Assembly (NCBI GenBank): GCA_005772955.1
Contig: SXID01000230.1
Span: forward strand, 1 to 49,500
Direction of reading: 5' to 3'
Source of the DNA: Planctomycetia bacterium
GTDB taxonomy: Bacteria; Planctomycetota; Planctomycetia; Gemmatales; Gemmataceae
DNA: 49,500 nucleotides
The position numbers and the translations under genes were made by a program. How positions within the stretch are numbered: position 1 is the first letter of the stretch; each line of letters starts with the position of its first letter. Below are positions 864-15,877 of this stretch, in pieces. Under the pieces are notes generated by a model that saw only the letters and a program-made list of their open reading frames with translations, ran no database searches and was not told the origin of the DNA.

Positions 864-3800
864 ATGCCGTTTGAGAAGGTCGAATCGTCGGTCGATTTCC
901 CGTCGCTGGAGCGCATGATCCTGAAGTTCTGGGACAACAACGGCATCTTCGAGAAGCGGAAGTCGCTGAACGCGGGGAAGAAGCAATGGAGCTTCCTCGA
1001 CGGCCCGATCACCGCGAACAATCCGATGGGCGTTCACCACGCCTGGGGGCGCACCTACAAGGATGTGTACAACCGCTACTTCGCGATGACCGGACACGAT
1101 CTCCGTTACCAAAACGGCTTCGACTGCCAGGGGTTGTGGGTCGAAGTCGAAGTCGAGAAGGAGTTGAAACTTGCGAGCAAGCGCGACATCGAGAACCTCG
1201 TTCCGGGCGACCCGGAAGCGAGTATCGCGCAGTTCGTGCAAGCCTGTAAAGATCGCGTGAACAAGTTCGCGCGTGTGCAAACGGACCAGAGCATCCGCCT
1301 GGGCTACTGGATGAACTGGGACCGCACCGACGCGGACTGGGCGAAGAAGCCGGATGACCGCAAGTCGTACTTCACGATGAGCGAAGAGAACAACTATACG
1401 ATCTGGTCGTTCCTCAAGAAGTGTCACTGCAAGGGTCTTATCAATCGCGGCTACGACGTGATGCCCTGGTGCGGGCGCTGCGGCGTCGGCATCTCCGAGC
1501 AGGAGATGAAGGAAGGCTACAAGCTCGTCGAACACCGCGCGTGTTTCGTGAAGCTCCCGATCAAGGGCCGTGAGAAAGAAAACTTGCTCGTGTGGACCAC
1601 GACACCTTGGACGCTCACGAGCAACGTCGGCGCCGCGATCAACCCCGATCTCACATATCTGCAAGTGAAGGTGAAGGGCGAAATCTATTACGTCGCGAAG
1701 GGCGCGTTCAAACTGAATCGGATGGCGTCCTCTGGCGAGCCGGGAGTGTCAGCGACCGGAGATGAAGACGACGCGGAAGACGGCGCGAAGAAAGGCGGTC
1801 GCCCGTGGCTGAAGGAGGTTCCCAACCTCGTCACCATCGAACAACACTTCAAGGTGAAGGCCGGCAAGGGCGAGACGTATGAAGTTGTCGGCGAGGTAAA
1901 AGGGAGTGAGATGCTGGCTTGGGAGTATGTCGGGCCGTTCGATGACCTCCCAGCGCAGAACCACGAATACGGCTTCCCGGAAGAAGTCGCCAAGATCACG
2001 AAGCAGAGCGGTACGTGGCCCGCGAAGACCGCGGCGCAGGCGCACCGCGTCATCAGTGGCGGCAAGGACGTGACCGACACGGAAGGCACGGGCATTGTTC
2101 ACACCGCGCCCGGTTGCGGTGCGATCGACTACCAGTGGGGCAAGGAAAATGGTCTGCCGCCGGTCGCGCCAATCGGCGACGACGGCGTGTTCGTGGACGG
2201 CTTCGGTGCACTCACCGGCAAGCACGCGGTCGATCCGAACACCGCGGACGCGGTGTTCGATAGCCTCAAGGCGCATGATCGGCTATTCGCGACGGAGCGG
2301 TACGTACACCGCTATCCGCACTGCTGGCGGTGCAAGACGGAACTTCTATATCGTCTCGTTGATGAATGGTTCATCAACATGGGGCCGAAGCACACGGAAT
2401 CCGGGTTTCGCGGCGACATCATGAAGGTGGTGAAGCAAGTCAAATTCCTGCCGGAGAGCATCAACGGTCAGGCGCGTGAATATGACTGGCTCTGGAACAT
2501 GGGCGACTGGATGATCTCCAAGAAACGCTACTGGGGTCTCGCGCTCCCGATTTGGGTGAACGAGAACGACCCCAACGATTTCGAGGTGATCGGCAGTTAC
2601 GAAGAGTTGAAAGAGCGTGCGGTTGAAGGCTGGGCGGAGTTCGACGGGCACACGCCGCACCGCCCCTGGGTCGATCGCGTGAAGATCAAGAGCGCGAAGA
2701 CCGGGAACCTGATGTCGCGCGTGCCGGACGTGGGCAACCCGTGGCTGGACGCGGGCATCGTGGGGTTCTCCACGCTGAGGTATAACCTCGACCACACTTA
2801 TTGGGAAAAGTGGTATCCCGCGGACTTCATCACGGAGAGCTTCCCCGGTCAGTTCCGCAACTGGTTCTACGCACTGTTGGCGATGTCCACGATGATGGGC
2901 GACGGCCAACCGCCGTTCAAGACGCTGCTCGGTCACGGGCTGGTGAAGGATCAGTACGGCAACGCGATGAGCAAGAGCAGCGGGAACTCTATCGAGTTCG
3001 TTTCCGCGGCGGATGAAGGCGGCACGATCACGGACCCGAAGGGCAAGCCACTGCCGTTCAACGCGATCGGCGCGGACGTGATGCGCTGGCTCTACGCCCG
3101 GCAGAACCCTGCGGCCAATCTCAACTTCGGCCCGGAACCGGCGAACGACGTGCGTTCGCGCGTGTTCTTCAAGTTGTGGAACACCTACGCAATGTTCTGC
3201 AACTACGCCAACGGCGACGGTTTCGATCCCGCAATGGCGCACGTGCCGGTGGGCGAGCGCCAGGACATCGACCGCTGGTTGCTCTCAAATCTCCAGACGC
3301 TCATCAACGACGCGAACACCGCGTTTGCCACCTACGACGTGATGACGTTCGCAATCAAGACCGAAGAGTTCATCGAGGGCGATCTATCGAACTGGTATGT
3401 GCGGCGTAACAAGGAGCGGTTGCACAGCAAGAACACCGACCTTGATGACGATGGACGCAAGGACAAGAACGCCGCGTACCAGACGCTCTATACGACGCTC
3501 ACGACGCTGTGCAAGTTGATGGCGCCGTGTGTGCCGTTCATCACAGAAGTGATGTGGCGGAATTTGGCGTCCCAAGGACCGCAGTCCGTGGGCGTGCGGG
3601 AGTCTGTTCACCTTTGCGACTTCCCGCGGGCCGATGAAGCGCTCATCGATAAAAACCTGTCCGACGACATGAAAGCCGTGCAGCGGGTCATCTCGCTCGG
3701 CCTTGCGGCGCGGCAGCAGGCGAAGATCAACGTGCGGCAACCGCTCGCGGAGTTGGTGGTGTCGTCCAGTTCGGAAGCGGACAAGCGAGCGGTCGCGCGG

Positions 3801-4394
3801 TTCCCGGACCTTATCCTCGACGAGTTGAACGTGAAGGTGGTGAGCCTACACACCGCGGCTGGCCCGCTGCTCGTCGGGGCGGCTCGGCTCAACAAGAAGG
3901 TCGCGGGCAGCAAACTCGGCGCGAAACTCAAGGAGGCGGAAGACACGCTCGGGAAGATGGACTCGGCCGACATCGCAGCGCGACTGGAACGCGGGCCGTT
4001 TGAAGTGGCCGGCGTGCCGTTGACCACTGCCGACTTCAACATCGAGTACGCGGGGCAACCGGGCTGGTGCGGGGTCGCGGACCGCGGCACACAGGTGGCG
4101 ATCAGCACCACTATCACGGAATCGCTGAAGCTCGAAGGGCTGGCACGCGACATGATTCGTCAGGTACAGAACGCACGCAAGGACGCGAAGCTCGATCTGC
4201 TCGACAAGATCGAACTTCACCTCGCGACCGATGCGCCGGAACTGAAAAAAGCGATCATCGCCCACCGCGAGACGATCGCGACCGCAGTGCAGGCGACGCA
4301 GTGGGCCGATGCGCCGCTGACGGGCGACGGCGTTCACGCCGCAACCGTGAAGATCGACGGGCAACCGTTGCTGATCGTGCTGCGGAAAGCGTAA
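864..4394 (+). CDS. ileS: Isoleucyl-tRNA synthetase with altered HIGH motif (GVHH)
   Basis: This cytoplasmic class I synthetase charges tRNA-Ile with isoleucine. At 1,176 residues it is longer than the usual 900-1,050. The catalytic HIGH position reads GVHH (residues 56-59), exactly eight residues before the conserved KD where typical IleRS has HxGH. The second signature, KMSKS, appears as AMSKSS near residue 702. The CP1 editing domain is recognisable from TTTPWTLTSN (about 242) and GTGIVHTAPGCGAIDY (about 412). Cysteine pairs in WCGRCG (about 201) and HCWRCK (about 490) fit zinc sites, and a helical anticodon-binding domain follows. The start ATG at 864 follows GCGAGGTTGCGCC, a weak ribosome-binding site. 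The gene stands alone and ends before a strong hairpin at 4464-4524. The GxHH form has been reported for some IleRS2 enzymes highly resistant to mupirocin. Confidence 0.95.
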   Translation: MPFEKVESSVDFPSLERMILKFWDNNGIFEKRKSLNAGKKQWSFLDGPITANNPMGVHHAWGRTYKDVYNRYFAMTGHDLRYQNGFDCQGLWVEVEVEKELKLASKRDIENLVPGDPEASIAQFVQACKDRVNKFARVQTDQSIRLGYWMNWDRTDADWAKKPDDRKSYFTMSEENNYTIWSFLKKCHCKGLINRGYDVMPWCGRCGVGISEQEMKEGYKLVEHRACFVKLPIKGREKENLLVWTTTPWTLTSNVGAAINPDLTYLQVKVKGEIYYVAKGAFKLNRMASSGEPGVSATGDEDDAEDGAKKGGRPWLKEVPNLVTIEQHFKVKAGKGETYEVVGEVKGSEMLAWEYVGPFDDLPAQNHEYGFPEEVAKITKQSGTWPAKTAAQAHRVISGGKDVTDTEGTGIVHTAPGCGAIDYQWGKENGLPPVAPIGDDGVFVDGFGALTGKHAVDPNTADAVFDSLKAHDRLFATERYVHRYPHCWRCKTELLYRLVDEWFINMGPKHTESGFRGDIMKVVKQVKFLPESINGQAREYDWLWNMGDWMISKKRYWGLALPIWVNENDPNDFEVIGSYEELKERAVEGWAEFDGHTPHRPWVDRVKIKSAKTGNLMSRVPDVGNPWLDAGIVGFSTLRYNLDHTYWEKWYPADFITESFPGQFRNWFYALLAMSTMMGDGQPPFKTLLGHGLVKDQYGNAMSKSSGNSIEFVSAADEGGTITDPKGKPLPFNAIGADVMRWLYARQNPAANLNFGPEPANDVRSRVFFKLWNTYAMFCNYANGDGFDPAMAHVPVGERQDIDRWLLSNLQTLINDANTAFATYDVMTFAIKTEEFIEGDLSNWYVRRNKERLHSKNTDLDDDGRKDKNAAYQTLYTTLTTLCKLMAPCVPFITEVMWRNLASQGPQSVGVRESVHLCDFPRADEALIDKNLSDDMKAVQRVISLGLAARQQAKINVRQPLAELVVSSSSEADKRAVARFPDLILDELNVKVVSLHTAAGPLLVGAARLNKKVAGSKLGAKLKEAEDTLGKMDSADIAARLERGPFEVAGVPLTTADFNIEYAGQPGWCGVADRGTQVAISTTITESLKLEGLARDMIRQVQNARKDAKLDLLDKIELHLATDAPELKKAIIAHRETIATAVQATQWADAPLTGDGVHAATVKIDGQPLLIVLRKA

Positions 4395-4463
4395 GAGACA
4401 AACGAACGCGGCCGGGACGAACCCGATCACATCGCAATGTGCCGATCGTAACGACATTAACGA

Positions 4464-4524
4464 GTCGCAAGTAGTGAGGTCGAAGACCACAACAGTGCAG
4501 GTCTCCGACCTCACTCCTTGCGAC
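4464..4524. terminator. Long inverted repeat between convergent genes
   Basis: Two 24-base arms (4464-4487 and 4501-4524) match at 22 of 24 positions and are separated by a 13-base loop. The hairpin lies between the ends of ileS (4394) and the convergent TIGR03000 gene (4537), so it probably terminates both. There is no T-run, and the stem is much longer than an ordinary intrinsic terminator, so it may also belong to the dispersed palindromic repeats seen elsewhere in the window. Confidence 0.6.
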
Positions 4525-4536
4525 GGATCGCAGCGA

Positions 4537-5214
4537 CTACTTGGAGGCGGCTTGCACACCGGTCGGCGTAAGTGTTACCGTCGAGGTTTCACCCGCGCGC
4601 ACGATGACCGATTCGGTTACTCGCTCGGTGCGCCCGTCGCGAACCACTTCCGCCGTGAGTTCGTAGCGGTAGTTCTGGCCCGGTTGCAGCGCCGGCGTGC
4701 GGAACGTGCGCACCGCCCCAGTCCCGGTCGCAGCGGTGCCGTTGAAGAGCAGTTTCGCGTCCGCCGGGAGAGTCACCGACACGCGACCTTCCGTCTTCTC
4801 CTTCAGCTCGTCTTTCTTTCCGTCGTCTTTCTTTCCGTCGTCTTTCTTTCCGTCGTCTTTCTTCTCGTCGTTCGCGGGTGGCTTGTTGGGATCCTTGTAC
4901 CACACGCCAAGGTACGGCTGTGCCGCTTCTCGCGGATAGTTGAAGTACCCGGCGGTGCCATGGTGGGCGTAGGACGCGAACCCGCCGCCGGCCATCCAGT
5001 TCGCGTACGGCCCCTGGCTGGAGTTGTAGTAGGCATACCACGGGTAGTACCACGCGTGGTTGTACGTGTTCGTGTACCACCCCGGCGGCATGACCGACGG
5101 CCACGTGACCGAGGTCGCGGACGGCCCCCAGTGTTGGTCCTGGGCGCTCGCGGCACCCCCAGACCACGCCCCCACTCCGACCGCAAGCGCGGCCACCAGT
5201 AACAGCCTTCGCAT
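4537..5214 (-). CDS. Secreted TIGR03000-domain protein with KKDDG repeats
   Basis: A 225-residue exported protein of unknown role. Residues 1-24 form a signal peptide (MRRLLLVAALAVGVGAW, then ASA-Q). A Tyr/Trp-rich stretch follows (WYTNTYNHAWYYPWYAYYN), then a Lys/Asp-rich linker built from about four KKDDG units, encoded by a 15-base direct repeat at about 4811-4870. The C-terminal part (VSVTLPADAKLLFNG, then TPALQPGQNYRYEL) matches the planctomycete TIGR03000 domain, a short beta-sandwich-like module. ATG at 5214 is preceded by AGGAG seven bases upstream; longer in-frame extensions lack a signal peptide. It ends next to the shared hairpin. The domain assignment is from memory of the family pattern; no function is known. 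Confidence 0.85.
   Translation of the reverse strand: MRRLLLVAALAVGVGAWSGGAASAQDQHWGPSATSVTWPSVMPPGWYTNTYNHAWYYPWYAYYNSSQGPYANWMAGGGFASYAHHGTAGYFNYPREAAQPYLGVWYKDPNKPPANDEKKDDGKKDDGKKDDGKKDELKEKTEGRVSVTLPADAKLLFNGTAATGTGAVRTFRTPALQPGQNYRYELTAEVVRDGRTERVTESVIVRAGETSTVTLTPTGVQAASK
4811..4870 (-). repeat. 15-base tandem repeat encoding KKDDG units
   Basis: The unit TCTTTCTTTCCGTCG (plus-strand reading) occurs about four times head to tail, the last copy diverged. It encodes the repeated KKDDG linker of the TIGR03000 protein. The near-perfect base identity suggests recent slippage or expansion. Confidence 0.85.
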
Positions 5215-5392
5215 GACGCTTCTCCTGTTGTGAATCCGTGTTGGAATCCTGCCCCACCAACTGGATTTTGCGCTACACCCAACCGCGAACAACCGCACTT
5301 GCCCACAGTTCACCTGATTCCGCCGGCCGGACGTGCGGGTTAACACTCTGGCGCCGATTGCGGTTAGCTCCGGGAGCGATAGAACACGAAAG

Positions 5393-5461
5393 GAGTTGCG
5401 AGTTGAAGCCGCGTCGTGCCTTCGGCTCGCGACTCGCAACTGGCGACTCGCGACTTGCAAC
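5393..5461. repeat. GAGTTGCGAG-family repeat upstream of mqnE
   Basis: The motif GAGTTGCGAGTTG at 5393 faces its inverted relatives (CTCGCGACTCGCAACTGG and CGACTCGCGACTTGCAAC) at 5426-5461. The same word family recurs at 17600-17674 and 23549-23615. Here it ends 11 bases before the mqnE start, just upstream of the GGAG ribosome-binding site. Function unknown; it can form an imperfect hairpin in the 5' untranslated region. The rest of 5215-5392 shows no gene and must hold the promoters of two divergent genes; I could not pick out the boxes. Confidence 0.6.
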
Positions 5462-5472
5462 CTGGAGCAGAC

Positions 5473-6615
5473 ATGACCACGCTCACTACGCGGCTCGCCG
5501 ACATTCAGGACAAGGTGCATTCCGGCACGCGTCTCACGTTCGACGACGGGCTGTTCTTGGATCAGAACGCGGACCTGTTCACGCTCGGCGAACTCGCGAA
5601 CTTCGTGCGCGAGAAGAAGAACGGCAACGTCACCTATTACAACGTGAACCAGCACCTGAACCCGACGAACGTGTGTGTGTACCGGTGCGCGTTCTGTTCG
5701 TTTCGCGCCGACTTGAAGTCGCCTGCCGGCTACGTGATGACCGACGCGCAGATTCTCCAGCGTGCGCGAGAAGCAAGCGAACAGGGCGCGACGGAACTTC
5801 ACATTGTCGGCGGACTGCACCACCTGTTGCCCTACGAGTGGTATCTGAACATCATCGCGAACATTCACACCGCGTTCCCGGACCTGCACCTGAAGGCGTG
5901 GACGGCGGTGGAGTGGGACTGGTTCGAGCGCATCACGAAGCGCCCGACGCGCGAGTTGCTCACGGAGATGAAAGCGGCGGGCCTGGGTTCGCTACCGGGC
6001 GGCGGTGCGGAGATCTTCCACCCCGACGTGCGCTCGAAGTTGTGCGACTACAAGGCCGATGGCGCGCAGTGGCTGCGCGTGCATCGCGCGTGGCACGAGT
6101 TGGGCGGCAAGTCGAACGCGACGATGCTCTACGGCCACATCGAGCAGCCGGAACACCGCATCGACCACATGGTTCGCTTGCGAGAACTACAGGACGTCAC
6201 CGGCGGCTTCCAGACGTTCATCCCGCTCGCGTTCCACCCGACGAACAACCCGCTGGGCGCGAACATTCCGCGTCCGAGCGGCTTAATGGATCTCAAGGTA
6301 ATGGCGGTGTCGCGGTTGATGCTGGATAACTTCCCGCACATCAAGGCGTACTGGCAGATGCTGACCGCGAAGGTTGCGCAGGTGGCCCAGAGCTACGGTG
6401 CCGACGACATCGACGGCACGGTGGTTCACGAGACGATCTACCACGCGGCTGGGAGCGACTCACCGCAGGAACTGACGGTGCGCGACCTGCGCCGTTTGAT
6501 CGAGGAAGCGGGCCGCGTCCCGGTGGAACGCGACACGCTCTACAACGAAGTGGTCCGCGACAAACCCGCCGAACGCAAGTGGGCGACCGGCCGCAAGCTC
6601 GAAGTGGTGGGCTGA
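5473..6615 (+). CDS. mqnE: Aminodeoxyfutalosine synthase MqnE (radical SAM)
   Basis: A 380-residue cytoplasmic radical SAM enzyme of the futalosine route to menaquinone; it joins the MqnA product to adenosine to form aminofutalosine. The iron-sulfur signature CxxxCxxC is C68, C72 and C75 (CVYRCAFCSF). Other family landmarks are NVNQHLNPTNVC before the cluster, the glycine-rich SLPGGGAEIF, and FIPLAFHPTNNPLG. ATG at 5473 follows GGAGCAG; a longer frame back to 5416 reads through repeat DNA and is not favoured. No other menaquinone genes lie in the window. A near-copy of the last 53 or so coding bases occurs again at 10321-10373, so the terminal residues after ATGRK may have been replaced by an insertion event. 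Confidence 0.93.
   Translation: MTTLTTRLADIQDKVHSGTRLTFDDGLFLDQNADLFTLGELANFVREKKNGNVTYYNVNQHLNPTNVCVYRCAFCSFRADLKSPAGYVMTDAQILQRAREASEQGATELHIVGGLHHLLPYEWYLNIIANIHTAFPDLHLKAWTAVEWDWFERITKRPTRELLTEMKAAGLGSLPGGGAEIFHPDVRSKLCDYKADGAQWLRVHRAWHELGGKSNATMLYGHIEQPEHRIDHMVRLRELQDVTGGFQTFIPLAFHPTNNPLGANIPRPSGLMDLKVMAVSRLMLDNFPHIKAYWQMLTAKVAQVAQSYGADDIDGTVVHETIYHAAGSDSPQELTVRDLRRLIEEAGRVPVERDTLYNEVVRDKPAERKWATGRKLEVVG
6550..6602 (+). repeat. Direct repeat, copy 1 (inside the mqnE 3' end)
   Basis: These 53 bases of mqnE match 10321-10373 with about four mismatches, in the same orientation. This copy codes for VVRDKPAERKWATGRK. The pair brackets a 3.7-kb segment carrying two minus-strand genes. Confidence 0.85.
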
Positions 6616-6632
6616 GCGCGTTGTCGTATGAA

Positions 6633-7754
6633 CTATTTGGGACGTTTTGCAGGCGGGTCAGTTGCGACGGCACGACCGAACCACGTCGCCGCGATTTCGG
6701 TTCGGTTTACGTCTGGGCGCGGTACCCTCTTCAACTCTACTCTCTTCAGAGCCGGCTTGCCGCTCAGTGGGAGCAGATAATCCTCCCCGTCGCCGGTCGC
6801 ACCTTTCTTCGTGATACCGACGCACGCCGACCCGTCGCGGCTGTTGCGCACGAGTGCGAGAACGGGGCATTTGACGTCGTCCCAAACAGCCGTCACCTTC
6901 CACTCCTTGCGGTCGCCTGCAGGCGGTTCGGCCATGAAAACCCGTCCGGTCATCTCGGTAACAAAGAACACACGCCCAGTCGAATCGCGGTGCGCGAAGA
7001 ACGGCTCGGCAAACGGAACAGGAATCGATTCCACTTTCGCCCGAACCTTCTCGCCCTCCTTATCGGCGCGGAAGGTGACCAAATCGACGGTCTTCCGAGG
7101 TGCTCGCTGAACATAAAGCGTCCAGTCGCGATCCGATGCCGAGGGTGGGCTAAAGTCGAACGTGAACGGCGGGCGGCCGTCCTTTGGCGGTTTGCCGACT
7201 TCCGCGATCTTGACCAGATCATCTTCCTTCAGGTCGCGCGCGTACGCGGCAAGAAAGCCGCGCCGGATGGATGTCACGGTCGGGCGCGACGATCCACTGA
7301 TGTACAGCCCGCTGTCGTCGAAAACGAACCCCTCGTCCTTGATTGGGTCAAGTTTCGGTTTCGGCCCACTTCCGATGACGAACCGTACTGGAACGCGGAT
7401 CGCTTGGCAGCGCCAAGGGATGTGGGCCGAAGACCCTTGATCGATGAAGAAGCTCCCAAGCCAGAGCGTATCTCCATCGACCGCCCACCGCAGGGGGAAG
7501 TGATGGCCCTGATCGAACAAAAACGACTCCACGGACTGGAACACTGTGTCGCCTTTCACTCCGACGGGAGAGCGGGTGATGAGCGAGTATGTCGTAAGCG
7601 ATTCGTCCTCGGTCGCCGGATCTTTTAGCGTCCAAGTGTAAACAGAATCATTGCGCAGCAGAACTTGAACCACACCGCGGGCCGGCGAATGGTTAACCTG
7701 GGCGTTCAACACGCTTATGGCAGCAACGCATACCGAAATCAGAAATGGAAACAT
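6633..7754 (-). CDS. Secreted hypothetical protein
   Basis: A 373-residue protein starting MFPFLISVCVAAISVLNA, a clear signal peptide, so it is exported. ATG at 7754 has GAGGAA seven bases upstream; GTG at 7769 is possible but lies before that site. The mature part contains VWDDVKCPVLALVRNSRDG and FFAHRDSTGRVFFVTEMTGR, which read like beta-strands of a propeller-like or repeat fold, but I recognise no named domain or catalytic motif. It begins only 20 bases after the stop of the Calx-beta/transglutaminase-like gene on the same strand, so the two are probably cotranscribed. It lies inside the segment bracketed by the duplicated mqnE end. Function unknown. Confidence 0.75.
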   Translation of the reverse strand: MFPFLISVCVAAISVLNAQVNHSPARGVVQVLLRNDSVYTWTLKDPATEDESLTTYSLITRSPVGVKGDTVFQSVESFLFDQGHHFPLRWAVDGDTLWLGSFFIDQGSSAHIPWRCQAIRVPVRFVIGSGPKPKLDPIKDEGFVFDDSGLYISGSSRPTVTSIRRGFLAAYARDLKEDDLVKIAEVGKPPKDGRPPFTFDFSPPSASDRDWTLYVQRAPRKTVDLVTFRADKEGEKVRAKVESIPVPFAEPFFAHRDSTGRVFFVTEMTGRVFMAEPPAGDRKEWKVTAVWDDVKCPVLALVRNSRDGSACVGITKKGATGDGEDYLLPLSGKPALKRVELKRVPRPDVNRTEIAATWFGRAVATDPPAKRPK

Positions 7755-7774
7755 AAAAGTATTCCTCACTCGAT

Positions 7775-10189
7775 TTAGTCTGCGCCCCAGGACTTGCTGT
7801 AGAATGTCGCCTTGATGCTCAGCCCGGCAGGATTATCTTGAAAGAAATACACAAACCGGCGATCCTCGGCCGCATTACTGATCTTTGGCCGCAATTCCTC
7901 AGGATCCTTGAAAAAGAATGCAATCTTCTCGTCAAACTCCTGAAGCGTCGAATACGTCACCCCGAAACTCGGATCGTAATAAGTCCCACCGATATAAACC
8001 GTCACGTGGTTATTAAATAACGTCAGGGGATTCGTGTTATTTTGAGCGGGCGGCGCGCCAGTAACATTAACTTCAGCGCCAGTATTCACAGCCTCACCCC
8101 AGATGTAACGATCCGTCGTGTACGGGAATTTATACACCCCTGGCTTTTTATAAGTATTAAAGTAAGGGTAGTTTGCCGGGAATGGGTTGGGGTAGCCAGG
8201 CTGACCAGCGATTAGTTGACCCGGACAGTAGACGGCATCATTGAGGAGAAATCCACCCCCGGCACCGTCTGGAGTAAGCATCGCATACGGCTTGTCCGGC
8301 AAGGTGGCACCCATCCCTTTGAGCGTGTCAGCGAAGAATTTCGCCCAAGCTCCGCATTTCCCATCTCGAGTCATTAAAAAATCACCATAGCGATCAGAAG
8401 ATGTGAGCCAATTCTTGTAGTAGTACAGTGGCTGCCCGCTCTTGGTTTGGACGTCGCGGCCGGAAAAGACGCCTCCGAAGATACAGGCCGCTAACTGGAC
8501 TTCTTCACTCAACCCAGCCGCGGCATGTGCCGCGGCAGAGATGACCGTATCGAATAGATTATCCGTGGTCGGCGTGGCGAAAGTTAAATACAAGGAATTG
8601 TCACTGTTACCCGCCGACTGCCAGCCGTTCTGTCCGTTCGGATCGAGGGTGAACTCCCAGGTGATTTGGTAATTGTCGTAGGCCTGAATGCTGTTTCCGA
8701 ATGGCTGGTTCGCTTGGAGTTGGTTGACGGATACAGTCCCGTTAGCCGAAACGAAGCCGAGCGTCGCGGGTAGCGTGTTCCCGTCTTGGGTCGAGCCGCG
8801 AATCCACACAGGACCCGAGACATCGTCTGCCAGGCGGAAAACGGCCGACACCTTGAGATACTCATTCCGGGTGAAACTCGTTGGGTACGCCCGCTCGCCC
8901 GAACCATCGTGGTCCGCATCGAAGTACTGCGGGCCGGAGTACAGAACCGAATTCCCGTCTTCCCCTGGGTCACCGACGATGGCTGGGTGGCTCGTGTCGA
9001 AAGTCATAGACTCAAGCCGAACGCTTGCGGCGACCGGAAGCGCGCTCGGCAATGAGGCTGGCCGAATCTCGTTATCGAAGATCTGAACGCTGGCGGCGTT
9101 CGACGTGCCAACGACGTAAGCGGCAACTGGCTGTAGTGTGAGCGCCACCACCTCATTAGGATCGACAGCTGTGTCGTCCACTGGCGTAATCACGACCTCC
9201 ACTTCCGATTCGCCAGCCGCGAACTCGACCGATCCAGTCAGTTCCTTGTAGTCGTCGTCCGCTGTCGCGCTGCCACTGATCGTGTAGTTCACTGTCAACG
9301 AATCGGTCAGGTCGCCCGTGCGCCGGAACAGGAACCGGCCCTCGCGCTCGCCGTCCTCCCACGCGTCCGTGATCTTCTCGACCGTGACCAGCGGGATCGC
9401 GTCTTCAATCGTGAGCGTTGCTGAGTAAACGAGGTCGCGCTCGTAGCCCGTCCCGGTCTGGAGCGTGACGACGATTGTTTCGTTCGGGTCGTAGACGCTA
9501 TCGGTGAGCGCTTCCACATCCAGGAACGTGTCGGCCTCGCCCACCGGGAACGTCACCGTCGTGCCGAGGGACGTGAAGTCCGTTCCCGAGGTCGCCGTGC
9601 CGCTGACCGCGATGGTAACCGTTAACTCAGAGCGCAAATCGCCCAGTCGAGTGAACGCAATGCGCCCATCCGAGACACCTTCCAGAGCGTTCGCGTCAGT
9701 TTGGAGTCCCACCAGCGGCGTTTCGGTATCCGCGATGGTGACAAGGGCAGTGTCGGATTCGCCGACGTCGTAGTTGTTCGGGGAGTACATGGGGAGCGTG
9801 ATTGTCACCGTCTCGGTTGGTTCGGCGATGCTGTCGTCGATTGGCACGATCGCCACGTCCACGGTTGCCTCACCAGCGGGGAAGGTCACCTCCCGGGCGA
9901 GGGCGGTGTAGTCGCTGCCCTCGGTCGCGGTGCCGCTGACATCGAAGTAAACCGTCAGCGGACCGGTCAGGTCTCCGGTGCGTGTGAACCGAGACAGGCC
10001 GCTCGATACCCCTTCCACCGCGTTCTCGATGCCCGTGACCTCAGCGATGGTCACCACCGGCGTCGGCACCGTGCGGTCCTCCAACAGCGTCAGGTTCAGC
10101 CGCGTCCGGTTGGGCACTGCCTTCAGCGTACTCTTCTTCGTGAACCGTTGGAACAAACGCGCGGCCAGATTGCGGATGTTGAGCGACAT
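7775..10189 (-). CDS. Calx-beta repeat surface protein with C-terminal transglutaminase-like domain
   Basis: An 804-residue protein. The N-terminus (residues 1-43) carries LNLTLLEDRTVP, the motif common near the start of planctomycete extracellular proteins. Three Calx-beta repeats follow, at about 44-152, 153-262 and 263-372, each with the pattern GTATxGxDYxxL, VTFPAGE and DPNETVxxTL; in exported proteins these fold as calcium-binding beta-sandwiches. Residues 380-560 look like another beta-rich region. The C-terminal 200 residues hold a possible transglutaminase/papain-like triad: C612 in GKCGAWAKFF, H728 in NNHVTVYIGG and D739 in YYDPSFG. An AGGA-type site precedes ATG 10189. The C-terminal coding half (about 7790-8560) is visibly richer in A+T than its surroundings, suggesting a separately acquired module. 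Protease versus crosslinking activity cannot be decided from sequence. Confidence 0.8.
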   Translation of the reverse strand: MSLNIRNLAARLFQRFTKKSTLKAVPNRTRLNLTLLEDRTVPTPVVTIAEVTGIENAVEGVSSGLSRFTRTGDLTGPLTVYFDVSGTATEGSDYTALAREVTFPAGEATVDVAIVPIDDSIAEPTETVTITLPMYSPNNYDVGESDTALVTIADTETPLVGLQTDANALEGVSDGRIAFTRLGDLRSELTVTIAVSGTATSGTDFTSLGTTVTFPVGEADTFLDVEALTDSVYDPNETIVVTLQTGTGYERDLVYSATLTIEDAIPLVTVEKITDAWEDGEREGRFLFRRTGDLTDSLTVNYTISGSATADDDYKELTGSVEFAAGESEVEVVITPVDDTAVDPNEVVALTLQPVAAYVVGTSNAASVQIFDNEIRPASLPSALPVAASVRLESMTFDTSHPAIVGDPGEDGNSVLYSGPQYFDADHDGSGERAYPTSFTRNEYLKVSAVFRLADDVSGPVWIRGSTQDGNTLPATLGFVSANGTVSVNQLQANQPFGNSIQAYDNYQITWEFTLDPNGQNGWQSAGNSDNSLYLTFATPTTDNLFDTVISAAAHAAAGLSEEVQLAACIFGGVFSGRDVQTKSGQPLYYYKNWLTSSDRYGDFLMTRDGKCGAWAKFFADTLKGMGATLPDKPYAMLTPDGAGGGFLLNDAVYCPGQLIAGQPGYPNPFPANYPYFNTYKKPGVYKFPYTTDRYIWGEAVNTGAEVNVTGAPPAQNNTNPLTLFNNHVTVYIGGTYYDPSFGVTYSTLQEFDEKIAFFFKDPEELRPKISNAAEDRRFVYFFQDNPAGLSIKATFYSKSWGAD

Positions 10190-10397
10190 GGGCGGGGCGT
10201 CCTTCCGAGGTGATGAGCGGCTTCAACCCTCACCACCGTGGCAGCCCCCCGTCGCGCCAAGCCCATTCCGCATATTCCGCCAGAAATTTCAGACGGGCTA
10301 TTTCCGCGATTCATCGACGGGTGGTCCGCGACAAGCCCGCCGAACGCACGTGGGCGACCGGTCGCAAGTTCGTGCCGCTGAACTGACTGGCTGCCGG
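10190..10397. other. Intergenic stretch with mqnE 3'-end duplicate
   Basis: About 208 bases without a gene. The part nearest the Calx-beta start (10190-10320) presumably holds its promoter; no boxes are called. Bases 10321-10373 duplicate the mqnE 3' end, and the copied frame continues to its own TGA at 10384-10386 (VVRDKPAERTWATGRKFVPLN). Confidence 0.6.
10321..10373 (+). repeat. Direct repeat, copy 2 (orphan mqnE 3' end)
   Basis: Near-identical to 6550-6602 (about 49 of 53 bases). It keeps the mqnE reading frame and a stop but has no upstream coding sequence, so it is a remnant. It marks the far edge of the 3.7-kb bracketed segment. Confidence 0.85.
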
Positions 10398-12692
10398 TTA
10401 CTTGGGATACTCCAGCTTCTTCTTCAGGAAGTCGAACGTTTCCTTCGCGTTGATCTGGTGTCCGCCGACGAACCACTCGATCGTTGTCCGATCGGGAATC
10501 TTCAGTCGGTTCGCGTAGAGGTAGCGTACCTTCGCGAACTCGTACGCGACCATCTCATCGATACCGACGCCGTCGTCGTGACCGCGTTCCACCATGAACG
10601 GGCGCGGGGCGATCAGGTACGCCATCTCCGCGTAGTTGAACGTGTTGCCCAGATCGAACTCGTACATCTCGTATTCGCCGGTCCACATATAGCTGCGATC
10701 CAGATCGACGGATACGTTCTTGCCGATCCACTCGTTGAAGTCGCCGGCGCAGATGGAGAGGCAGTAGCGTTTCTCGACCGCGGGCACGCGCATCGCGGTC
10801 TTCCCGCCGTAGGAGAGGCCGTAGAACGCGATCTTCTTGGAGTCCACGTTTGGCAGCGTTTCGAGCCAGTCGATGGTGCGTTCGTGCTGTCGGATGATGA
10901 AGCTGAACAGCGAGAGCTTGAGCGGGTTGGCTTTGCGCTGCAACTGGCGGAACACGTTCTTGCCGTAGTACGGGTTCTGCGGTGCGTACACGATGTAGCC
11001 GAGTTCAACGAGCCGCCGTGAGAAGTGGTTGTACACCGGGCGTTTCTCGACTTCGATCGTGTCGCGCGGTGTTCCTTCGAGACCGTGCTGGCACACGACC
11101 ACCGGCCGTTTCTCGCCCGGCTTCAGGTCTTTCGGAAGTAACAGAATGCCGTACGCGAACACATCGTCGTAGACGTCGAGTGTCACTTCGTATCCGGTCC
11201 AGGTCTTCTCGTCGTAGATCTGTCGCGTTCGCGGGTTGAGCGGTCCCTTCGGGTCCGGCAGTTTGCCGATCACTTCCGTGTGGAAGTAGTCGCGGTACGC
11301 GTCGCACGACTTCTCCCACGCTTCCGGCGACTTGGCATCTGCTTTCGCCCAGTACGTTTTGCGCGTGGCGTCGGAGTCGCGCCACAGCTTCTGAACGTGC
11401 GCGACAAGTTGGTCGAACTGCCGCTTGTGGCGCGCCGCGGAGTCGAAGTTCTTCCGCTTGTCAACGACCGCGTTCATCAGCGTGTCCGGCGCGGCGAAGC
11501 CGTCGGCTTCGAGCGTGTGGAGTAGGTCGCGGAAGCCGTAAGCGTTGTCGAGCGTGTTGACGTTGCCGCGGACGGGGCCGACCCAGAGTAGGCGGGCGAG
11601 GTACCGCTTGTACTCGGCCGCCGCCTCGTCCGGCCCCGGCTTGATGCCGCCGGGGGCCGCCTGTTTGCTCACCTTCGTGTTCGGGCCGTCCCACTCCGGC
11701 CACGCACTCTCGGTTCCCTTTTTCTCCTTCGCGTTCGGCCGTGGGTAGATTGTGACGCGCGCGAGCACGTCGTCCTGCCCGGCGACCATCGACGCGACCT
11801 CCGCGTCGCCGAACTCGCGGACGTTGTTCCACAGGTTGCGGTCGAGCGGCTCGCTGTGGCTGCTCTCGCGCGGGCCGAACGCGCACGCGACGTGCAGCGC
11901 GTTGATCCGCGAATCGGCTGCCGCGGCGTAAAGAGCAACGCGTCCGCCTTCGCCGACGCCGATCACGCCGATGGGCAACTTCTTGTCTTGCGCGTGGAAC
12001 CAATCGACGGCCGCGAGTACCTTCTGCACCTCGTAGCCGACGAGCGTGCGGCCCATCTGATAGGCCATGCGGTGAACGAATTCGCGGTGCGGAAGGTTCG
12101 TTCCGCGTTTCAGTTTCTCGCTGCCGGAAAGGTTGTCATTGCGGTCGATGAGTACCGGCACTACGACGCGGCAGCCGTGCTCCGCGAGCCGCTGCGCGAA
12201 TGCGAACTTCTCGTCCTTCGTCAGCCCGGCGATTTGTTCCGGCGTCCAGAGCGCGTCGGGAATCGCGACGACGTTCGCCTTTACCTTCCCCTTCGGTTCG
12301 AGCAGCAGTCCCTCGCCATCCACGCCGGGCAGCACGCTCCATCGCACCGCGTACACGGTAAACGCGTCACACTCCGCGACGACCGCCGGTTCGCCCGGCC
12401 CGCTGACGTACTCCATGCGCGGCGCGAGGCGAGCATCCACGACGCCGAGCATCTTCTTGAGGGCGTCGCGGTGTTTCGCGGCGTCGAGTTTCTTCCACTC
12501 CGCGTCGCGGTTCTTCGCGGACGCGGCGAGTTCGCGGTCGAGGTATTTGTGCATCCCCTCCACTTGCTTCGTGGAGAGGTTGCCCTCGATGGTCAGCGCC
12601 TTGGTGTTCGGTAGCGGCTCCGCGGCATTATTCACCGCAGCGAACGCGGAGAACGCGGAGACAAGACACGATAGTTTGAACAGGCTTCTCAT
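10398..12692 (-). CDS. Secreted tandem alpha/beta-hydrolase (acetyl xylan esterase/dienelactone hydrolase-like)
   Basis: A 764-residue exported protein with a signal peptide (MRSLFKLSCLVSAFSAFAAV). It has two alpha/beta-hydrolase-like halves. The second half (about 500-764) has a normal nucleophile elbow, GLSYGG with S627, an acid candidate in RGHDDGVG (D706/D707) and H745 in VGGHQIN. The first half (about 100-300) has the aligned elbow GVGEGG, where glycine 247 replaces the serine, so it is probably non-catalytic. The likely role is hydrolysis of ester-linked carbohydrate or similar substrates in the periplasm. The start codon sits between the arms of an inverted repeat (12631-12728), which also codes for part of the signal peptide. 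DUF1501 lies 47 bases upstream on the same strand. Substrate unknown. Confidence 0.82.
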   Translation of the reverse strand: MRSLFKLSCLVSAFSAFAAVNNAAEPLPNTKALTIEGNLSTKQVEGMHKYLDRELAASAKNRDAEWKKLDAAKHRDALKKMLGVVDARLAPRMEYVSGPGEPAVVAECDAFTVYAVRWSVLPGVDGEGLLLEPKGKVKANVVAIPDALWTPEQIAGLTKDEKFAFAQRLAEHGCRVVVPVLIDRNDNLSGSEKLKRGTNLPHREFVHRMAYQMGRTLVGYEVQKVLAAVDWFHAQDKKLPIGVIGVGEGGRVALYAAAADSRINALHVACAFGPRESSHSEPLDRNLWNNVREFGDAEVASMVAGQDDVLARVTIYPRPNAKEKKGTESAWPEWDGPNTKVSKQAAPGGIKPGPDEAAAEYKRYLARLLWVGPVRGNVNTLDNAYGFRDLLHTLEADGFAAPDTLMNAVVDKRKNFDSAARHKRQFDQLVAHVQKLWRDSDATRKTYWAKADAKSPEAWEKSCDAYRDYFHTEVIGKLPDPKGPLNPRTRQIYDEKTWTGYEVTLDVYDDVFAYGILLLPKDLKPGEKRPVVVCQHGLEGTPRDTIEVEKRPVYNHFSRRLVELGYIVYAPQNPYYGKNVFRQLQRKANPLKLSLFSFIIRQHERTIDWLETLPNVDSKKIAFYGLSYGGKTAMRVPAVEKRYCLSICAGDFNEWIGKNVSVDLDRSYMWTGEYEMYEFDLGNTFNYAEMAYLIAPRPFMVERGHDDGVGIDEMVAYEFAKVRYLYANRLKIPDRTTIEWFVGGHQINAKETFDFLKKKLEYPK

Positions 12693-12728
12693 GTCTTCCT
12701 CTGCGTCCTTTGCGTTCTCTGCGGTGAA
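12631..12728. repeat. Inverted repeat (TTCACCGCAG family) around a start codon
   Basis: The left arm, about 12631-12665 (TTCACCGCAGCGAACGCGGA...), is complementary with some mismatches to the right arm, about 12694-12728 (...GCGTTCTCTGCGGTGAA). The hydrolase ATG (12690-12692) lies at the edge of the loop. The left arm is coding and supplies VSAFSAFAAVN of the signal peptide; the right arm covers most of the gap to the DUF1501 stop at 12740. The element resembles repeats found in multiple copies in planctomycete genomes (recollection, not searched). Confidence 0.7.
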
Positions 12729-12739
12729 ATCTCTTCAAC

Positions 12740-13825
12740 TCAGAACAGTTCCGCAACTGGCGTGCCAGGATACACCGCGACCGGCGTTCCCTCTGGCCCC
12801 GGAATGGTCGCGTTAGGTGAAACGCCGAGCGCGTGGAAGATGCTGCTAACCAGGTCCTGCGGCGTGACCGGCCGGTCACTCGGTTCGCTCCCGGTGGCGT
12901 CGGAACGGCCGATCACGCGACCGCCCTTCACCCCTCCACCCGCGATGAGCGTCGTCCAGCACCCGGCCCAGTGATCGCGCCCCCCGTTGGAGTTCAGCTT
13001 CGGTGTGCGTCCGAACTCGCCCGTTGCGACCACGAGCGTCGATTCGAGCAAGCCGCGTTCTTCAAGGTCGGTGAGAAGCTGTGCGAACGCGGTGTCGAAG
13101 CTCGGCGCGACGGTGTCGCGAACGTCGTTGAGCGTGGTGCGGAGCGACCCGCCGTCCGCGTGGCAGTCCCACGACGGAGAATCGAACACGGTGGAGAACT
13201 GGTTGATGGTGATGAACACACATCCAAAACTCTCCCACCCAACCGCCGTGGAAAGCATTTCCCCGATGCCCGCTTTGGAATCGATAACCCCGCCGATGCC
13301 TTCTGGACGGTTCAGCCAACCGACTCCCTGGCCGTGCGAGACGGATATGCCGGTGTTAATTGAGACGGCCTTCGCAAGAAAGGCTGGTGCGCGACCCGTC
13401 AAGTGCGACACTACCGCGCCAACGCTCGGCCATTCGGGGCCGTCGCGGAAGAGACGCCCAGTGTTCAGCAGTTGGAATCCGCACTCGTGAACTGGCGGGG
13501 CGTCGTGGTGCATCGTGCGAATCAGAGCGAACTTTTCACTCATCCGCGCGAGCTTCGGGAACAGTTCGCTGAGGTGGACGCCGGGCGTTGCCGTTTGAAT
13601 GGGCTTGAACGGCCCACGCACATCGGAAGGTGCGTTCGGCTTCGGGTCGAAGGTGTCGAGGTGAGCCGGCCCGCCCACCATATTGATGAAGATGCAACTC
13701 TTCGCGCTGCCCAGCGCGAGCGGCGATTTCGTGCTGCCGCTCGCAACGCCAGTAAGCGCGAGGCCCGCGGCACCGGCGGCCGTGACGCGGAGGAAGTCGC
13801 GGCGTGTTGGGTGTGCTTCAGACAT
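12740..13825 (-). CDS. DUF1501 protein with Tat signal (sulfatase-like fold)
   Basis: A 361-residue protein. The N-terminus, TRRDFLRVTAAGAAGLALTG, carries a twin-arginine signal, so it should be exported folded. Family landmarks are INMVGGPAHLDTFDPKP near the mature start, a HHDAPPVHECG segment, VVATGEFGRTPKLNSNGGRDHW and the final segment TPQDLVSSIFHALGV. DUF1501 proteins are abundant in planctomycetes, are distantly related to the alkaline phosphatase/sulfatase superfamily and usually sit beside DUF1549/DUF1553 genes with cytochrome-like domains. That partner is missing here; the downstream neighbour on the same strand is the tandem hydrolase. ATG 13825 is chosen because it puts the Tat motif at the normal position; a 30-residue upstream extension does not resemble the family. 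The biochemical role of the family is not established. Confidence 0.87.
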   Translation of the reverse strand: MSEAHPTRRDFLRVTAAGAAGLALTGVASGSTKSPLALGSAKSCIFINMVGGPAHLDTFDPKPNAPSDVRGPFKPIQTATPGVHLSELFPKLARMSEKFALIRTMHHDAPPVHECGFQLLNTGRLFRDGPEWPSVGAVVSHLTGRAPAFLAKAVSINTGISVSHGQGVGWLNRPEGIGGVIDSKAGIGEMLSTAVGWESFGCVFITINQFSTVFDSPSWDCHADGGSLRTTLNDVRDTVAPSFDTAFAQLLTDLEERGLLESTLVVATGEFGRTPKLNSNGGRDHWAGCWTTLIAGGGVKGGRVIGRSDATGSEPSDRPVTPQDLVSSIFHALGVSPNATIPGPEGTPVAVYPGTPVAELF

Positions 13826-14141
13826 AGTGCGGCCCGGTAAGGGATGAAGCGGCGAAGTCGCCTCATCGTACCGAACTGCCACGCGGATGCAACGAGTTGC
13901 TTGCAGGATCGTCACCTACCGGCCTTGCGGCCGGGGCTCGCCAATCCGTCGGCGGCGGTACGAGCCGCGGCTTCCCAACTATGGCGCTCGATCACCCAAC
14001 ACCGCAACGATTCGCCAGCCTCAGTGCGCTTGGCGGTGTCATGCCCACGCGACCGCGGCCAGGAGAGAGTCTTTGACGAACCGAAGGCTCCTGCGATGTA
14101 GTTCCGTGAGAGCGCACCGTCGAAAGGGTCTGTGGGAAACG
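13826..14141. other. Intergenic region, no gene recognised
   Basis: About 316 bases between DUF1501 and the hairpin that follows the secretion operon. Short ORFs exist on both strands but none has family character. The half nearest DUF1501 should contain its promoter. Segments such as CGGCCTTGCGGCCG form small palindromes. Confidence 0.4.
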
Positions 14142-14209: not shown

Positions 14210-15877
14210 TTACTTGCCAGCCACCTCGAACATCGGACCGGTGTCCGCGGACTGCTTGAGAACTTTCGTCGCCTCGGAGTCGGTGAGTTCCTTGATCGTC
14301 GCGAGCGACTGGCCGACCGTCCAGCGGTAGACCTTGCCCGGAGCGAGCGTCACACCGTTGGTCATGTTCCCGGCGATGGCCGCGAGCGGCGCCGCCGGTC
14401 CCTGCTTGGGCGGTCCGCCACCCTTCGGCGGCCACCCGAAGCCCTTCGGCGGTGCCGCCGGCTTCGCTGCGGCAGGCTTCTGGTCCTGAAGGATCAACCC
14501 GTCGCCGTCCACCCCGACCACCTTGAACGTGCGCCTGGTCGCGCTGTTGTCGTCGGAGATCGCGAGTACCCCGTTGGGGTCCGGGTCGCTCTCTTCCTTC
14601 TTCTTGTCCTTGATGTAGTAGAACTTGCTGACGGTCACCTTCTTGCCGGTCACCTCGATCTCGTATCGCTGGCGGTTCGCGGCGTCGCGGATCGCGGCCG
14701 ACGCGGTGCCGTCGGACCGGAACGTGACCATCGTCAGGATAATGGCCGTGTCGACATCGGGCTTCACCGGTGGCGGCTTCTCCACGATCTCCGGCGGTGG
14801 CGGCTTCGGGCCGACGAACACCGTGAAGGAGGTCTTCTCGGTCTTGCCTTCCACCGAGGTCGCGATGACGGAGACAGTCGCACTGCCCTCACTTGCGGAG
14901 GTCTTCGGGATCTCGATGGCGAGCGTCTTGGGATCGACCTTCAGCGCGCCCGGTGCGAACGGCCCGCCCGGCGCGCCTTCGATCTGAACGACGACCTTCG
15001 CGCCCACCGAACCCTCACCGCTGACCGCGATCTTCACCGTCGTCGGCTTTTCGTCCTGAACGACCTTCACGTCCTTCGGCTGATGTAGTTTGAACGACGG
15101 CGGTTGCGGGAGCGGGCCGTTGAACGGATCTTTCAGCACGATCAGGCTGTAGTCGCGCGGCTTGGTCGAGAGGATCGGAACCAGCACCGGTGGGGTGACG
15201 CCGCGCCCGTACTCCTTGCTGTGGGCCATGCTCTGGTGCAGCATGCCACCGCCGATCGCGGCGAACGCAGTCGGCACCGGAAGCAACGTGCGGCGGTTCT
15301 CGGCCCCATCCACGATGACGGCTTCCGTGGTGAACGTCACCGTGAGGTCGTTCCGCTTCGCCGGGCCTTTCGCGCTGTCCTCGTCCTTCTTGATGCTGAA
15401 ATGCGTGATCTGGTGTAGCACGCCGAGTTCGTAGTACCCCTTGAGGAAGTCCTTGACGATCCACATGTCGGCCTTCTTGACCGTCACTTCGTACGCGATG
15501 CGGGTGTAGATCGGCTTGTTCTTGCTCAGTTCCGGCACGTAGCGCACGGAGTTGTCCACCACTCGCTGGTTGATGGTGTAGCCCTTCGGGGCGCCGGCCG
15601 CGTCGAGCAGACGCCCGAGCGCGACCTGGTACTCGCCCCTGGCGAGGTCCGCGTCGGCCGGGAGGCTGCGGGCGCGGGCGATGGCCAACTTCTTCGCGTT
15701 GGCGAATTGCGCCCGCTCTTCCTTCTCCAAATCATCGATCTCGTTCCGCAGCGCTAGTTCGGCGGCGCGGTTCTTCTGGACCGGCACCAGAACCAACAGG
15801 TAGCCGCCGACCGCGCCGACGGTCAGTGTCATGATGCCGATCAGGAGGAGTGCGAGCGTTTGGTCGCGGGAGGTCAT
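14210..15877 (-). CDS. GspM/PilO-like inner-membrane assembly protein
   Basis: A 555-residue bitopic protein. Residues 8-31 form the single membrane helix (TLALLLIGIMTLTVGAVGGYLL). A short coiled coil follows (NRAAELALRNEIDDLEKEER), then a periplasmic alpha/beta region with the layout of PilO/GspM. The C-terminal half is unusually long and Pro/Lys-rich (PAAAKPAAPPKGFGWPPKGG) with Ig-like beta segments (VSVIATSVEGKTEKTSFTVF). PilO and GspM position the inner-membrane platform of type IV pili and type II secretion systems. The gene is the last of the operon, 70 bases after the PilM/PilN fusion. Similarity is by architecture and position rather than strong motifs. Confidence 0.65.
   Translation of the reverse strand: MTSRDQTLALLLIGIMTLTVGAVGGYLLVLVPVQKNRAAELALRNEIDDLEKEERAQFANAKKLAIARARSLPADADLARGEYQVALGRLLDAAGAPKGYTINQRVVDNSVRYVPELSKNKPIYTRIAYEVTVKKADMWIVKDFLKGYYELGVLHQITHFSIKKDEDSAKGPAKRNDLTVTFTTEAVIVDGAENRRTLLPVPTAFAAIGGGMLHQSMAHSKEYGRGVTPPVLVPILSTKPRDYSLIVLKDPFNGPLPQPPSFKLHQPKDVKVVQDEKPTTVKIAVSGEGSVGAKVVVQIEGAPGGPFAPGALKVDPKTLAIEIPKTSASEGSATVSVIATSVEGKTEKTSFTVFVGPKPPPPEIVEKPPPVKPDVDTAIILTMVTFRSDGTASAAIRDAANRQRYEIEVTGKKVTVSKFYYIKDKKKEESDPDPNGVLAISDDNSATRRTFKVVGVDGDGLILQDQKPAAAKPAAPPKGFGWPPKGGGPPKQGPAAPLAAIAGNMTNGVTLAPGKVYRWTVGQSLATIKELTDSEATKVLKQSADTGPMFEVAGK

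Follow-up and report, generated by a model that had tools for sequence, protein, structure and literature searches.

The mqnE locus

We describe here a 49,500-nucleotide (nt) stretch of contig SXID01000230.1 from a planctomycete of the family Gemmataceae (genome G000; 5.93 Mb in 278 contigs), referred to below as the window, in which mqnE, the vitamin K pathway gene for aminofutalosine synthase, is followed by an orphan copy of its own 3′ end with a different tip. The working copy lies at 5473 to 6615 on the plus strand (NCBIfam TIGR03700; 524.2 bits against a cut-off of 434.55). A repeat search of the window found a direct repeat at 6550 to 6601 and 10321 to 10372, with 48 of 52 bases identical and a spacing of 3,771 bp, so that the same gene end stands at both borders of the intervening segment. 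An earlier sequence-only reading had put the shared end at about 53 bases with about four mismatches in direct orientation; the repeat, its orientation, and the four mismatches stand, and the core length is corrected to 52. With their stops, the two ends span 6550 to 6615 (closing with VVRDKPAERKWATGRKLEVVG) and 10321 to 10386 (VVRDKPAERTWATGRKFVPLN), both on the plus strand. Both reach a stop codon, as had been noted for the second copy, and their tips are unlike: GRKLEVVG in the working gene and VPLN in the orphan. Over the 66 nt there are 11 mismatches, 7 of them within the last 14 nt (hypergeometric P = 0.0009). The locus therefore pairs an intact mqnE with a downstream orphan that has the core in common with it but not the tip. 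A search of the whole of G000 with positions 6530 to 6615 returned two places only at E ≤ 0.001; the second copy scored E = 3.4e-15, and a chance origin of the repeat was rejected on that basis.

Two genes fill the segment, both on the minus strand, in agreement with the two co-oriented genes reported earlier. Gene A (6633 to 7769; 378 amino acids [aa]) ends 17 nt from the mqnE stop, has a hydrophobic N-terminal stretch predicted from its sequence to be signal-like, and falls in no Pfam or NCBIfam family. Gene B (7775 to 10189; 804 aa) has an N-terminal LEDRTVPT motif and three Calx-beta stretches (Pfam PF03160, E = 2.5e-31), the only domain to pass Pfam. Its C-terminal domain may be transglutaminase-like, because a DGxC...H...YDPSxG pattern, which we take to be a Cys-His-Asp triad, is invariant in six aligned homologues. 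The earlier description of a Calx-beta/transglutaminase-like protein is thus borne out by Pfam in its first half; the second half has no Pfam match and depends on this pattern. Predicted structures were poor (predicted local distance difference test scores of 44 for gene A and 38 for the C-terminal half of gene B). The G+C content is 58.5% at 6616 to 10320 against 63.3% in the window, a local drop that the earlier reading had also seen, and 54.4% in the 3′ part of gene B (7775 to 9060). Pfam and NCBIfam searches between the borders gave Calx-beta-type matches and no recombinase, which upholds the earlier statement that no integrase is present.

Besides itself, gene A has one weak match among the 95 family genomes searched. 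In genomes G007, G093, G100, and G029, weak relatives of A and B are found close together, with their order kept. The start of gene B and the 61 bp upstream of it (10190 to 10250, minus strand) are 88% identical to a LEDR/Calx gene of sister genome G001 (blastn over window 10101 to 10250), and gene B therefore belongs to this bacterial group. The 70 bp between this conserved flank and the orphan end (10251 to 10320) have no confident match in the compared loci (blastn, best other rows at E = 0.42). Gene A had no match in PLSDB and no relative in IMG/VR, the C-terminal half of gene B had no match in PLSDB, and the segment had no phage match in a search made at the DNA level only, in which proteins were not searched. 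A phage or plasmid origin was rejected on these results.

Gene ends in related genomes

Eighteen congeners were compared, 16 of which have mqnE; the assemblies of G003 and G015 have none. Among the 17 mqnE genes, counting that of the window, the LEVVG tip is found in G000, G005, G018, G006, G016, G010, and G017 (where an insertion precedes the tip), VPLN in G001, G012, G009, G007, and G002 (5 of the 16 congeners), and other endings in the remaining 5 of 17 (G011, G013, G014, G008, and G004). Both window tips thus occur attached in relatives, LEVVG in 6 of the 16. All 18 congeners also carry a second radical-SAM homologue 35 to 38% identical to MqnE, which is presumably mqnC.

On an IleS tree, a single clade (support 0.995) unites G000, G015, G001, G002, G012, G007, and G009. 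The mqnE body of the window is closest to that of G001 (94% aa identity), with which it groups in a tree of mqnE bodies (96/99). Every mqnE-bearing member of the IleS clade other than G000 ends in VPLN; therefore the LEVVG end at 6550 to 6615 is probably the newcomer and the orphan VPLN end at 10321 to 10386 probably the displaced original. Judged from these sequences, the working mqnE likely received a new end while the old one was shunted downstream. The earlier proposal that the active gene gained a new C-terminus is probably right, and the downstream copy still ends in VPLN like the mqnE genes of its clade relatives (G001, G012, G009, G007, and G002). We regard the new C-terminus as fairly well supported. 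Nucleotide identity between the window and G001 falls from 90% over 1,050 nt of body to 68% in the last 66 nt, which supports replacement and is not decisive. Argued from nucleotide identity alone, tail replacement is weakened, because the tail is variable in all pairs.

When the orphan end was used as a DNA query against the genomes of the genus, one good place was found outside G000 besides the ends of mqnE genes themselves; the search overlooked mqnE's own end in some divergent congeners and may have let diverged orphans or cores escape. This place lies on a 5.1-kb contig of G015 (C389), whose IleS is 89% identical to that of the window genome. The order there is ftsH (NCBIfam FtsH), an mqnE 3′ end, a convergent A-like gene, and the C-terminal part of a B-like gene. 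This mqnE end is 125 nt long, 88% identical to the window over 127 aligned columns, and has a LEVVG tip and a 2-nt deletion upstream; the stop of the A-like gene is 3 nt away. The A-like protein is a distant homologue of gene A (26% over 74 aa, E = 5e-5). The B-like gene is truncated, its C-terminal part being fused to a frame that we read as kinase-like. At 3694 to 4605 of the extracted locus, that frame runs in frame into the transglutaminase-like part, as either a real fusion or a chimeric contig. No mqnE body was found on C389 or in the G015 assembly, and no integrase was recognized among the open frames read on C389.

A second gene shows a comparable arrangement in G001, where one contig (C8, locus L233) holds three 3′ ends of sdhA (NCBIfam), two of them orphans. 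The end in place is at 8416 to 8559; a displaced 144-nt orphan, 96.5% identical, lies 1.3 kb away at 7120 to 7263; and a third end of 120 nt, 89% identical, lies at 14433 to 14552 and faces, at a distance of about 0.5 kb, a convergent LEDR gene of Calx/cadherin-like type. The in-place and displaced ends differ at 5 positions, all synonymous and confined to a 10-nt stretch of the last 8 codons (post hoc P = 5.5e-5). The displaced and third ends have a common 3′ flank, from which the in-place flank differs except for a short GCGGGCCGCGGGG-like stretch, and a 195-aa gene with no family lies between the in-place and displaced ends. The working sdhA thus seems to have gained a new end together with the 195-aa gene, its old end and flank being displaced. 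The third end is preceded by a short start resembling that of what we assume to be a repeat-companion gene.

Beside the displaced sdhA end is a 3′ remnant of the A-like gene of G015 (85% aa identity). A further gene, Z, which is complete elsewhere in G001, is represented by a 77-nt orphan end a few bases from the stop of this remnant. The mqnE, sdhA, and Z ends have no meaningful similarity to one another (best sdhA-to-mqnE match, E = 0.29).

Flanking regions and frequency

To the right of the orphan end, at 10398 to 12692 on the minus strand, is a hydrolase with DLH/esterase-like domains (Pfam DLH), convergent to the orphan and taken as lying outside the insert. At the right junction (10387 to 10397), blastn homology to the hydrolase loci of relatives starts between 10390 (G018) and about 10399, that is, 4 to 13 bases past the orphan stop. 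This hydrolase is a conserved gene of the genus, matching best at 86% (G010 and G018) and at 75% in G001. Its partner in each of the 10 hydrolase-bearing loci compared is the gene at window 12740 to 13915, which we take to be DUF1501-like. The hydrolase is closest to G010 and G018 though mqnE is closest to G001, a possible transfer or paralogue. In G002 it lies about 3.5 kb from mqnE, on the upstream side.

The earlier reading had predicted an empty site in relatives, with a single mqnE end followed directly by the hydrolase; this was found in none of the 16 congeners with mqnE. Nor does any of the 16 have a second copy of the mqnE end in the 1.9 to 16.9 kb examined behind the gene, where at most 32 of 54 bases match, and an arrangement common to all relatives is thereby excluded. 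The other outcome that would have told against an insertion, the same cargo in place beside a single-copy mqnE, is touched on by G015 only, and there a distantly related module lies at an orphan end and not at a whole gene.

Few genes are common to the 17 genomes within 8 kb behind mqnE. A convergent gene, X, is the first gene behind mqnE in G012, G009, and G007 and the second open frame in G001; G000 gave no match to X at E ≤ 1e-10. One gene group is found behind mqnE in G001, G012, G009, and G007, with a second gene common to the last three; another group is found in G011 and G017, plus a few weaker matches. Upstream of mqnE, a small gene is present in 12 of the 16 congener loci. In the window, the small gene between ileS and mqnE contains a tandem 15-nt repeat (4793 to 4867) that encodes GKKDD-type repeats of about 5 residues.

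The frequency of such scars was surveyed in two scans: 60 loci with partial overlap (1.10 Mb), compared with themselves, gave 15 direct pairs, and 47 stretches (0.79 Mb; 20 of G000, 20 of G001, and 7 others) gave 12. An intercontig comparison on both strands covered 306 kb of G000 (63 pairs) and 480 kb of G001 (166 pairs) and added the Z end. The only gene 3′-end duplications accepted in the two scans were those of mqnE and sdhA, with part of each genome covered and several pairs uninspected. Pairs L159/L045, L186, and L191 were rejected as palindromic G+C-rich repeats or apparent gene-family starts; L148, L150, L161, and L241 were not settled, and L192, L267, L291, L293, and L300 were not inspected. 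Many other rows of the intercontig comparison, not all of which were inspected, are a palindromic repeat. The displaced-end scar thus seems uncommon in the DNA scanned. Orphan gene ends stand beside A- or Calx-type genes in three sister genomes, a small number of cases. G+C-rich palindromic repeats of the CCTCTCCCCCCAACCCCC type occur at window 20415 to 20464 and 26469 to 26518 and on another G000 contig, and similar repeats recur in many G001 stretches.

Interpretation

On balance, we lean toward a homology-anchored insertion that displaced the gene end, here at a metabolic gene and with a Calx-beta/transglutaminase-like module as cargo. Donor DNA from another Gemmata-type genome, carrying a LEVVG-type mqnE 3′ end followed by a convergent A-B pair, would have recombined into the resident mqnE through the gene-end homology. 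The working mqnE would have taken the donor's last codons, A and B would have arrived behind it, and the resident VPLN end with its stop would have been pushed 3.7 kb downstream, to persist as the 66-nt orphan. One homology-anchored side would suffice, whether the DNA was linear and joined illegitimately at its other end or was a small circle that entered by one crossover, and an element-borne recombinase would not be required. A further rearrangement would have brought the hydrolase against the orphan end. The direction of the swap, the donor, the mode of DNA entry, the order of events, and the hydrolase rearrangement are what we infer from the present arrangement.

This reading is favored by the 48 of 52 identical bases followed by an abrupt change of tip, by the distribution of tips together with the IleS clade, and by the comparable scars in G015 and G001. 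The G000 mqnE and G001 sdhA cases share an anatomy of exchanged tip, convergent cargo behind it, and orphan end with the other tip, as expected from a homology-anchored insertion. Published models of like layout (PMC2935791, PMC5361080) count in the same direction. More tentatively, and with doubt, Calx-beta/A-type modules of the Gemmata group might sit convergent at the stops of other genes and travel with the last 60 to 145 bp of a former neighbor; the carried end would then anchor landing behind the same gene in another genome, swapping its tip, so that non-toxin modules would spread without an integrase.

Several results weigh against the insertion proposed here. No genome was found with the donor layout (a whole LEVVG-tipped mqnE followed by A-B), and none with an empty site. 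Because in no case among the 16 congeners does the hydrolase come directly behind mqnE, the locus is not a clean single insertion and at least one further rearrangement is needed. The left side lies within homologous mqnE, and the right junction (10320/10321) has no clear microhomology. On the IleS tree, G000 and G001 are sisters with a support of only 0.76, and in the tree of mqnE bodies neither the position of G002 nor the larger groups are resolved. Within the last 66 nt, the window is 65 to 76% identical to the other VPLN genomes, 79 to 83% to LEVVG genomes with ungapped tails, and 64% to G017; low identity in this bin is partly due to the difference of the tip itself, and the 8 lowest residuals of tail on body do not include the G000-G001 pair. 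The window copies are 92% alike over their first 51 nt, where no relative exceeds 86% (G015, 86% and 84%). A tree of these 51 nt groups both window copies, the orphan included, with G015, G018, and G010 (0.976). The orphan is therefore not simply a G001-like resident end, and conversion between the copies or a crossover within the tail must be added. The G015 assembly, in about 750 contigs, reaches a completeness of 68%, and C389 could be chimeric. The LEVVG tip in G015 and the weak tree support make the proposed direction of the swap, and its time, less certain.

The best-surviving alternative is that the segment is the relic of an integrase-mediated island at the mqnE 3′ end, with attL and attR, a restored gene end, and an integrase since lost. 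It would explain why gene-end direct repeats bracket the segment and why mqnE is restored in frame with a new tip, and integrase genes occur in 19 of 19 genomes of the genus (among the Pfam matches listed). The duplication of the icd end by prophage e14 (165 bp, 12 exchanges) looks alike (PMC11148124). Nevertheless, no integrase or other mobile gene lies between the repeats, no second core copy occurs in the DNA examined behind mqnE in any of the 16 congeners, a degenerate pattern of the tail had no matches in IMG/VR, and the scar in G001 uses sdhA, whose end is not meaningfully similar to that of mqnE. The idea that an element integrated into the gene end, put forward in the sequence-only reading, is thus weakened by the lack of an integrase in the segment and of second ends and an empty site in the congeners examined; a classical island was rejected as first choice for want of an integrase and an empty site, and we think its relic unlikely.

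A history of rearrangements that broke the chromosome between convergent gene ends, and that involved no actual insertion, is a still slimmer prospect. The scarcity of common genes behind mqnE, while the small upstream gene is mostly kept, agrees with such a history, as do the transplanted hydrolase and the broken genes on the G015 and G001 contigs. Rearrangements alone do not account for two differently tipped mqnE ends on one contig or for the swapped codons in G001 sdhA. We give least credence to a tandem segmental duplication of the mqnE end and downstream DNA, followed by segment replacement and drift of the tip: the copies are indeed nearer to each other than to any relative over their first 51 nt, but the tips are two ready-made alternatives that end working mqnE genes in different congeners, the mismatches are concentrated in the tip, and no repeat of the segment follows the orphan (4500 to 13500 searched).

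Comparison with known systems

The literature search returned no paper pairing mqnE with an integration site, and by title and opening of the abstract none of the papers it returned on Gemmata genomic islands and integrases addresses this. If the favored reading is true, variable regions behind ordinary housekeeping genes such as mqnE and sdhA are built up through this recombination scar too, and a gene-end orphan with a tip swap is a searchable signature for the integrase-free gain of such genes in these planctomycetes.

In the papers compared here, gene-end displacement is described for rhs genes (PMC2935791), type VI secretion system (T6SS) loci (PMC5361080), and a prophage target (PMC11148124); models of the circle or linear-fragment type were proposed for rhs tips and T6SS effector-immunity modules (PMC2935791, PMC5361080). 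The displacement of rhs C-termini (Jackson et al. 2009, PMC2935791) resembles the present case in the exchanged 3′ tip of a working gene with genes behind it, in dissociated downstream fragments that join the conserved part to another tip, in lower G+C downstream, and in alternative tips attached in relatives. Unlike rhs, the gene here encodes a metabolic enzyme whose tip is only a few codons long, with a Calx-beta/transglutaminase-like pair as cargo in place of an rhs tip and its linked genes. The mqnE case works like the rhs family and is no member of it, because the gene is mqnE. Homology-facilitated illegitimate recombination, as proposed for T6SS loci (PMC5361080) and Escherichia coli variable segments (PMC2884548), likewise has one homology-anchored end, adds new genes, and shunts the old downstream part away; in contrast to those cases, no donor and no microhomology were found here. 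The e14 prophage in icd (PMC11148124) matches in its duplicated gene 3′ end, the exchanges flanking the insert, and the restored working gene, and differs in being a prophage with an integrase, whereas the mqnE segment is 3.7 kb long and has no recombination gene. The best reading of the mqnE and sdhA cases is a known kind of event, gene-end displacement, at housekeeping genes with Calx-beta-type modules.

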